Notes under the pieces: model-generated | Seen by the model: only the letters and a program-made list of their open reading frames with translations | Told to the model about the DNA's origin: nothing | The model's database searches: none | Shown here: in pieces, positions 37,850-40,718 of the stretch | Layout: every line of letters starts with the position of its first letter | Position numbering within the stretch: position 1 is the stretch's first letter | Position numbers and translations under genes: made by a program | Assembly: GCF_900114615.1 (NCBI RefSeq) | Contig: NZ_FOTS01000021.1 | Location: forward strand, 1-64,000 | Reading direction: 5' to 3' | Source: Pelosinus propionicus DSM 13327 | Lineage (GTDB): Bacteria; Bacillota; Negativicutes; DSM-13327 | Length of the DNA stretch: 64,000 bases

Positions 37850-38527
37850 TTAGGGCAGCACATTCTTAATCCTGTCTTTAATTTCATCTGGTAAATCCAC
37901 AGCCGTTGTAAAGTTGACAAATCCCTTTTCTGGTACAGCCTCTTTAATGATCATTGCATCCAAAGGTTTATAACCAAATACATCAAGCGTTCCTATGTTA
38001 GAGTTATATAATGCCTGATGGAAATCAATAGTTACCTCATTCCCCACAACTTTAACCCCCAAACCATAACCAGGATTAACATGACCTACGAATTTTGTAA
38101 CCATAGCTAAACTGACTTTAGAAAAAATCCAAGAAACAATTGGCTTATCGGGTAATTTCTTATCTACAATTTTTAATTTCATAAACGAGCTCTCTCTATT
38201 ATGTTCAAACTGCTTGATATCGCATATAAAAACCATACGCCCAGCCTTTTTCGTTAAGGCACTAATTTTTAGCTTATGACCCTCTAAAGATGTGATGGAC
38301 AATTCTTTTATTTCTTCACTATCTTCTATTGTTGAAGCTAAATACTCATTCATCACATCATCAGGAACGGCTACTTTCCCTTGTTCTAAATTCCGGAACG
38401 TCTGTAAATCCCAAGTTTCTTTCAACACCGCAATAACATGAGATACATTCGGTATCGTCTCTTCAATACTCCATCCCTTAGCAGCATCCATTACGTGATC
38501 TGAAATAATAGCTGGCATATCAATCAT
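37850..38527 (-). CDS. Hypothetical protein, possible ligand or lipid-binding two-part protein
   Basis: I do not recognise this 225-residue protein. It has no signal peptide or membrane segment and contains few cysteines. The N-terminal 90 residues are acidic (IEDSEEIKEL). The C-terminal part is a mixture of short beta-like segments, with IVSWIFSKVSLAMVTKFVGHVNPGYGLGVKVVGNEVTIDFHQAL and the ending EIKDRIKNVLP. GGGGGA lies 9 bases before the ATG. It is convergent with the HD-domain gene, sharing its terminator, and is monocistronic. The reading frame, start site and codon use look like a real gene. Confidence 0.7.
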   Translation of the reverse strand: MIDMPAIISDHVMDAAKGWSIEETIPNVSHVIAVLKETWDLQTFRNLEQGKVAVPDDVMNEYLASTIEDSEEIKELSITSLEGHKLKISALTKKAGRMVFICDIKQFEHNRESSFMKLKIVDKKLPDKPIVSWIFSKVSLAMVTKFVGHVNPGYGLGVKVVGNEVTIDFHQALYNSNIGTLDVFGYKPLDAMIIKEAVPEKGFVNFTTAVDLPDEIKDRIKNVLP

Positions 38528-38660: not shown

Positions 38661-38767
38661 GGATAAAAAAATAAGCTCCGAACCTGAAGTGCACCCCCAA
38701 AGTTAATTCAGTATATCATACTGTCTAACTTTGGGGGTGCACTTCAACCAGCGGAGCCTATTTTTTT
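38661..38767. terminator. cstA terminator hairpin carrying a small inserted element
   Basis: The outer stem is AAAAAAATAAGCTCCG (38665-38680) against CGGAGCCTATTTTTTT (38752-38767), with T runs on both strands and one mismatch. Its original loop, AACCAG, is interrupted by the 62-base inverted-repeat element at 38685-38746. The structure still forms one long hairpin. Confidence 0.8.
38685..38746. mobile_element. 62-bp miniature element with IS3-like terminal repeats
   Basis: Perfect 21-base inverted ends, TGAAGTGCACCCCCAAAGTTA (38685-38705) and its inverse (38726-38746), around a 20-base core with a CAGTAT-ATC-ATACTG palindrome. The flanks repeat ACC (38682-38684 and 38747-38749), a 3-base target duplication as IS3-family elements make. 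The ends resemble the TGCACCCC...AGTTAGACA ends of IS3/IS150-group elements. No transposase is inside. Confidence 0.75.
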
Positions 38768-38771
38768 ATCT

Positions 38772-40574
38772 CTAATGAATTATGGATTTAGGTGCAGGTG
38801 CTTCACTATAATCAGGTGGAACCGTTCGTGATAGATGCACCCAACGAATAATAGAATCAACAAGAACAACGATTACCAGTACAAACATCACACCACTCAC
38901 ACCAGCTAGCAGATAATTTTTGGCTGGTAAATAGGTATTGAAAATATTCATATAATCTGCGGTGAATGTCACGGTTGCTAAAAACATCATAGGCATAATA
39001 GTGATCCAGGCATAACGCCCCCGCCCCATACGAAAGAGCATGGTAGTACCGATTGCTAACGTCAAGGTGCCTAATAGCTGATTGGAAACACCAAATAAAG
39101 GCCAAATCGTAGAAATATTCCCCTGGAGTACCAGGTAACCCCAAGCAAAGCAAATTAAAGCACTTGTAAAGATGATTCCAGGCCACCAGTGTGTATCTTT
39201 AAGTGGTTTATAGATTACACCACCCATTTCTTGCAATAGATAACGGCCAACACGAGTACCAGCATCAATTAACGTTAAAATGAACAGAGCCTCAAACATG
39301 ATACAAAAATGATACCAAAAGGACATAAGGGATTCCATTCCTGGTATTTTCGAAAATATATGAGCCATACCAACCGCCAAAGAAACGGCACCACCTGGAC
39401 GGCCTGTTATATTCTCACCAACCATTTCTGACAAATGGGGCAATTGGTCTACAACTAATCCTAACTTTGCAAATGCTGCTGGAGTAGAATTGATAGCGAA
39501 ATAATCAGCGGGATTCAAGCTAGTAGCAGCAATCAATGCCATTAAAGCAACAAAACTTTCAACTAACATAGCACCGTAGCCGATAGGAAGAATCTCTCTT
39601 TCATTCATGATCATTTTGGGCGTCGTACCTGTACTAATTAAAGAATGAAAACCAGATAACGCACCACAGGCTATCGTAATAAAGACAAAAGGCCACGCCG
39701 GACCGCCGATAACAGGTCCACCGCCACTAACAAATTGACTGAATGCAGGCATTTGAATTTCAGGTCTAACTACAATAATGCCAATTGTCAAAGCGGCAAT
39801 CGTACCAATTTTCATATAAGTACTTAAGTAATCTCGTGGTGCCAGCAGCAGCCACACTGGCAGGGCCGCAGCAAAAAAGCCGTAAAAGGCTAGCATAATT
39901 GATAATTGTCTCACATCAAATGTAAAGTATGGCGCCAATGAAGAATGTTGAATCCATGGGCCAACAAATACAGCAGCTAAAACCAATAGCACACCTATAA
40001 TAGAAGCCTCCTGGATCTTCCCAGGGCGCAGCCAGCGCAGATAAATACCAATAAAAATAGCAATAGGAATGGTCGCAGCAACCGTGAATGTACCCCAAGG
40101 ACTATTGTATAAAGCATTTGCTACTACTACAGCCATACCAGCCAGAGTAATCACCAGCAAAAATAAAACCGCAATCGAAGTACAAAAACCAGATATATTA
40201 CTAACTTCTTTTTTCGCTATTTGTGCCACTGATAAGCCATTGTGACGAACGGATGCGAACAAGATAACCATATCATGGACAGCACCAGCAAAGACAGCAC
40301 CAATTAATAACCATAGCGTTCCTGGGAGATAACCAAACTGGGCAGCAATAACCGGACCTACCAGCGGACCTGCACCAGCTATCGCTGCAAAATGATGGCC
40401 AAAGGTGACCCATTTGTTTGTAGGAACATAATCCCTGCCATCGTCCATACTCACTGCAGGTGTCACCCTCTCTTCATTCAGCGTAAGTACTTTGGCGGCA
40501 ATAAAGGAGCCATAAATACGATACGCAAGAGTTAACCAAAGCGCGGCAATAATAACAAGATAAATACCGTTCAC
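38772..40574 (-). CDS. cstA: CstA-family carbon starvation / peptide-pyruvate transporter
   Basis: A 600-residue protein with about 16 hydrophobic segments. CstA hallmarks are visible: GRDYVPTNKWVTFGHHFAAIAGAGPLVGPVIAAQ, SGFHSLISTGTTPKMI, and ALFILTLIDAGTRVGRYLLQE. CstA proteins import peptides or pyruvate under carbon limitation. The start is the GTG at 40574, which has AGGAGGAGG about 7 bases before it; the open frame to 40640 lacks such a site. It is a single-gene unit ending in the composite terminator described separately. Confidence 0.94.
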   Translation of the reverse strand: MNGIYLVIIAALWLTLAYRIYGSFIAAKVLTLNEERVTPAVSMDDGRDYVPTNKWVTFGHHFAAIAGAGPLVGPVIAAQFGYLPGTLWLLIGAVFAGAVHDMVILFASVRHNGLSVAQIAKKEVSNISGFCTSIAVLFLLVITLAGMAVVVANALYNSPWGTFTVAATIPIAIFIGIYLRWLRPGKIQEASIIGVLLVLAAVFVGPWIQHSSLAPYFTFDVRQLSIMLAFYGFFAAALPVWLLLAPRDYLSTYMKIGTIAALTIGIIVVRPEIQMPAFSQFVSGGGPVIGGPAWPFVFITIACGALSGFHSLISTGTTPKMIMNEREILPIGYGAMLVESFVALMALIAATSLNPADYFAINSTPAAFAKLGLVVDQLPHLSEMVGENITGRPGGAVSLAVGMAHIFSKIPGMESLMSFWYHFCIMFEALFILTLIDAGTRVGRYLLQEMGGVIYKPLKDTHWWPGIIFTSALICFAWGYLVLQGNISTIWPLFGVSNQLLGTLTLAIGTTMLFRMGRGRYAWITIMPMMFLATVTFTADYMNIFNTYLPAKNYLLAGVSGVMFVLVIVVLVDSIIRWVHLSRTVPPDYSEAPAPKSIIH

Positions 40575-40718
40575 AATAAACCTCCTCCTATTTTTTTGAA
40601 TACTCTTTAAGATTTCACTTATACCATACCCCAAGTACAACTATTGGGAAACCAAAAATGGCTCAATGGAATAAATTAGTCGATAATCAGAAGGGAACTA
40701 GGGTTCATTGGAAATAAA

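Follow-up and report, generated by a model that had tools for sequence, protein, structure and literature searches.

The closest precedent for the element described here is found in IS1397 and ISKpn1, IS3-family insertion sequences (ISs) that insert into palindromic units (REP); their specificity for palindromic intergenic targets is attributed to the transposase (PMC1525189). These two ISs target one REP family, whereas the elements we describe target intrinsic terminators of unrelated sequence, coding-free miniature elements (minis) included. IS3 and other ISs also bear, at the 5′ end, terminator-like structures that prevent expression from external transcripts, the 'mobile attenuators' of Naville and Gautheret (PMC2965389). 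As far as the accessible portion of that paper goes, the leader is considered within ISs and insertion is treated as nearly random, and neither terminator targeting nor stand-alone leaders were found in it.

Bacterial MITEs, reviewed in PMC10969869, resemble the minis in being short and non-autonomous, with terminal inverted repeats, target duplication and hairpin potential. The minis differ in being shorter (42-69 bp) and in consisting, as it appears, solely of the regulatory leader hairpin of a parent IS. A term search of the review turned up neither IS3 nor IS150, and no terminator-loop target. The SPRITE repeats of S. pneumoniae are likewise terminator-like interspersed repeats near gene ends, but their inverted ends are only AAAA/TTTT, no duplication or empty site is shown for them, and IS3 is not mentioned (PMC3049150). 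Our search was confined to the open literature; within it we found no earlier description of a terminator-loop preference of IS3 elements or of the combination of features reported here, and any novelty is provisional.

The window is a 64,000-nucleotide stretch of the Pelosinus propionicus DSM 13327 genome (G000), and it contains a palindromic element in the loop of the cstA terminator (Table 1). We think it very probable that this is a non-autonomous miniature element of the IS3 family (IS150-like), made of a completed leader hairpin and inserted into that loop. The initial annotation had described a 62-base element with perfect 21-base inverted ends and a 20-base middle, and the arms are indeed complementary at 21/21 positions and lie 20 nt apart. 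It placed the whole structure at 38661-38767, the right location but with the right edge set slightly too early, as the outer stem extends to 38770; the outer terminator arms pair over 19 nt (95%). A target duplication of either ACC or AACC had been offered. The 3-bp version holds, while the 4-bp version needs an element end without its terminal A and is disfavored because IS3 elements have TG...CA ends.

Table 1. Features of the cstA terminator and of the element inserted in it (window coordinates)
Feature	Position	Strand	Remarks
Host terminator left arm	38662..38680		A-tract and GCTCCG (38675-38680); insert-free orthologous terminators in G001-G007
Target duplication, left copy, ACC	38682..38684		Single copy in the G004 empty site
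Miniature IS3-type element, 62 bp	38685..38746	-	Leader orientation is the minus strand
Terminal inverted repeat, 21 bp	38685..38705		Putative completed inner arm of the IS leader
Terminal inverted repeat, 21 bp	38726..38746		Putative IRL of the parent IS, from arm pairing and the IRL of the G024 IS
Target duplication, right copy, ACC	38747..38749
Host terminator right arm	38752..38770		CGGAGC (38752-38757), then T-tract
cstA (carbon starvation protein CstA)	38775..40640	-	Pfam PF02554, E 5.5e-219

The composite of terminator and element adjoins the cstA stop codon and is the predicted terminator of cstA on the minus strand. Its predicted fold has an energy of -67.4 kcal/mol (z = -13.7), and since none of 200 shuffles folded equally well, the hairpin is not a chance structure. 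It had been proposed that the insertion lengthens the hairpin and leaves it working. A longer composite fold that retains the T-tract is predicted, and the lengthening arises because element and target are both palindromes; that the composite still terminates transcription is inferred from the predicted fold only. A simple terminator scan misses the composite because the scan's loop limit is 8 nt, and since such inserts alter terminator length and loop, other predictors with short loop limits will miss them too. Neither an ORF of at least 60 aa nor a transposase gene lies within the element itself. A gene of 225 aa (37850-38527), on the strand of cstA and downstream of it, has no Pfam match.

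The insertion event can be read directly from related genomes. cstA is present in all eight genomes of the genus, and its terminator lacks the element in the seven others, so the insertion is specific to this genome. One of the seven (G004) carries the exact empty loop CTGGTT, which is the complement of the AACCAG that had been rebuilt from the flanks and is the loop expected once the element and one ACC are taken away. A second copy, whose first 60 bases are identical to the window element, occupies an unrelated locus in G005, and the empty allele of that locus in G006 is a textbook terminator, AAAGAAAGCGGATGCC-TTTTT-GGCATTCGCTTTCTTT. The empty sites in G004 and G006 thus establish that two insertions of a near-identical 62-mer both lie in terminator loops. 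G007 has a third, diverged copy, and the hairpin around it is weaker.

A strong hairpin followed by a T-tract at a gene end could also have evolved in place, as an extended terminator or RNA regulatory element that is not mobile. We find this reading barely tenable given a species-specific insertion flanked by an exact 3-bp duplication, the empty sites, an almost identical 62-mer at the unrelated G005 locus, homology to IS leaders, and the absence of any Rfam family at gathering score (weak microRNA-model matches fell far below it). Since the copies of G000 and G005 occupy different loci, we infer that the window copy was mobilized in trans by an IS3 transposase. Dispersal of the REP/BIME type, which entails many copies, is not seen, as the host genome has just one copy of the element. 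No parent IS with matching ends was found in the host assembly, a draft of 134 contigs from which repeats may be missing.

The ends had been likened to IS3/IS150-type termini, and a search for further copies and for full-length elements with these ends, suggested at the time, found both. On the minus strand the window element is a match to the left terminus of an IS of 1283 bp with IS3 orfA/orfB in G024, a genome from another family of the same class as the host. The window end (TGAAGTGCACCCCCAAAGTTA) resembles the IRL of the G024 IS (TGAACTGCACCCCCAAAGTTA), and the element starts in TG and ends in CA; the 40-nt pattern of IRL and spacer occurs, among 60 relatives, only in the G024 IS and the window. 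In the G024 IS the IRL pairs with an inner arm over the orfA Shine-Dalgarno sequence, immediately 5′ of the ATG, and leaders of this plan fold strongly in every targeting family examined. The window element shares the TG...CA ends and 3-bp duplication of the IS150-like IS3 family, and its ends match full-length members, whose orfA/orfB transposase corresponds to NCBIfam NF033516 and Pfam rve; unlike those ISs, it lacks any coding sequence. In IS150 of E. coli, from which the group takes its name, the leader folds only weakly (-8.2 kcal/mol), and none of the sampled records placed this IS in a terminator.

Near-identity between minis and IS leaders is seen repeatedly. Four full ISs of G370 are identical over 45 nt to two minis of that genome; past that point the ISs run into the start codon (TTTTATG or TTTCTATG), whereas the minis stop at CA followed by the duplication. 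Leader/mini pairs of the same kind occur in G155/G154 and in G076. On one viral contig the leader of a full IS (L121) is already a complete palindrome overlapping the start codon, and a mini on the same contig (L120) is identical to it at 51/52 positions; in other genomes, 1-2 bases separate the mini from the leader. An autonomous partner is present for the minis of G370, G155 and G076 and, in L121, on the viral contig. Judged by these identities, the window element appears to be the 5′ leader hairpin of an IS3-type element (IRL, spacer and inner arm) with its 3′ arm completed, and not merely two IS ends brought within 20 bases of each other.

How the arm was completed can be partly inferred. 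Because the right ends of the minis are complementary to IRL and differ from IRR, a completed inner arm is a better fit than a deletion reaching the right end, and template switching is perhaps how it came about. An origin by deletion between the inner arm and IRR was dropped because the right ends seen in G370 and G155 disagree with it. Some minis (L148, L176 and L185) have flanks that are mirror images of one another all the way to the element, which would fit a palindrome perfected after insertion by template-switch correction; L176 has no direct duplication whatever.

The same evidence bears on whether minis move at all. They could be immobile scars, left when a full-length IS in a terminator loop collapsed through deletion between the inner arm and the right end with the duplication kept. 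Full-length parents do occupy the same kind of site, the inner arm and IRR share GGTGCAG-type homology, and the same duplication is predicted. Such a deletion would leave IRR-type ends (...GCAGATCA in G370, ...GCATATCA in G155), but the minis end in ...GCAGTTCA, the exact complement of IRL. Repeated identical events would also be needed to explain why identical minis recur at several places in G055 and G370, and why G000 and G005 have near-identical ones at sites that are not orthologous. G055 has minis yet no full-length leader match. We regard the scar explanation as unlikely, though not negligible.

Under the mobile-element reading that we prefer, both arms of a mini look like IRL, and a transposase acting in trans could use both as ends. 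The element inserted into the cstA terminator loop and produced a 3-bp duplication, which is also the behavior of its full-length relatives, and the product is a longer hairpin that keeps the original T-tract. In the case of a full IS, transcription would enter the element through the split terminator, and the leader hairpin would then block orfA translation. With a mini, a single longer hairpin, built from the palindromes of element and target, would stand on the unchanged T-tract.

The initial annotation had suggested a preference for terminator loops. Scans for minis were blind to the flanks, as the patterns looked at the element only. They found 21 sites in 13 of 380 genomes of the same class, where a reversed control pattern matched one genome, and many further minis in viral and genome collections, with Bacillota, Bacteroidota, Pseudomonadota, Actinomycetota and others among the matches listed. 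About half of the viral-contig matches arose by chance, predominantly in GC-rich DNA. After these had been filtered out, at least 137 minis from many phyla remained. Among the matches listed with an adjacent long frame, only L121 was clearly the leader of an intact IS.

Terminator-like stems were recognized by a score for pairing that spans the insertion point and stays within 14 nt of it, with a threshold of 12; spanning-pair counts from RNA folds and duplex energies were too permissive (43% of random points passed at -10 kcal/mol). Among the matches listed, 64/137 minis reached the threshold, against 2.5% of random points and 4.3% of random intergenic points of the same contigs (P ~1e-49), and 53% had no strong stem at this threshold. 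The intergenic points were not matched for distance to gene ends. When flanks were permuted, 48/138 listed minis lay above the 99th percentile; exchanging flanks between elements is a harsh control, terminators being alike. A duplication of at least 3 bp flanks 42/137 of the listed minis, compared with 3.3% expected, and is not intact in the other 95. Of the 42, 34 (81%) reach the stem threshold.

The insertions lie near the dyad, with a median offset of 2-3 nt and a median loop of 5 nt. Since they fall near the centers of short loops while the stems are unrelated in sequence, we infer, as a suggestion, that DNA with two-fold symmetry or an extruded hairpin is the preferred target of the transposase. 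Random insertion without any target preference might give a similar picture if elements survived only in harmless places, and terminator loops are such places, the composite hairpin retaining stem and T-tract. This is improbable in our judgment: 81% of the listed minis with a duplication, and only 4% of random intergenic points, reach the stem threshold; survival alone would not require positions to cluster at the loop center; and three related IS families (G035a, G035b and G041) persist at 12 sites without a terminator.

Full-length parents behave as the minis do. For eight families, with multi-copy loci collected and element ends set by alignment, 34/54 copies qualify at a stem score of 12 and 38/54 at a score of 10, and several of the remainder resemble terminators by eye, with longer loops. 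Terminator insertions account for 6/7 copies in G003 and 7/8 in G044. Further copies in G370, G076 and G155 are in terminators in 7/9 cases (6/6 in G370 and G076 alone). Exceptions include 6/12 copies in the G062/G067 group and 3/4 in the G259 group, which lie elsewhere. None of the 12 sites of the three related families (ends GGGGGTGCGGAC and TGAACCGTATTG, mostly with normal duplications) is at a terminator, and the difference from the parents (34/54) is significant (Fisher P 5e-5). The preference for terminator loops is well supported as real, although it is not absolute. Ten E. coli IS150 records contained no terminator insertion, a weak test given that they represent mostly one hok locus. 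The sampled copies were found repeatedly at hok/sok loci, on chromosomes as well as plasmids.

Target choice remains an open question for most IS families. The large set of natural insertions assembled here, some with empty sites, points to preference for a structural feature, the hairpin loop, instead of a sequence. This is a simple route by which mobile DNA can avoid harming its host, and such elements may spread without breaking genes. It also connects the hairpin shielding an IS against external transcription with the origin of miniature elements, two subjects usually treated apart. It is tempting to go further, to a proposal that we hold only tentatively, at slightly less than even chances. 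A set of IS3-family transposases from many phyla would recognize dyad-symmetric or extruded hairpin DNA, with intrinsic terminators as their normal target. The leader that masks the ribosome site would double as a mobile unit, and minis would be born repeatedly and accumulate nested in terminators, some of them serving as modified terminators. A tree of 18 transposases is too small to tell whether targeting has a single origin, and it leaves the trait's history unsettled: the targeting families occupy several parts of it, IS150 and G035a lie among them, and branches are long.

Two observations on other full-length copies can be added. One copy in G153 (L343) sits at the foot of an intact terminator, not in the loop. 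Three genomes of the class (L251-L257, L271-L278 and L282-L284) contain an IS3-type element of 1.7 kb whose ends are TGATATGCTMCCCC/TGGTGTGCTMCCCC, and practically every copy of it is in a terminator loop.
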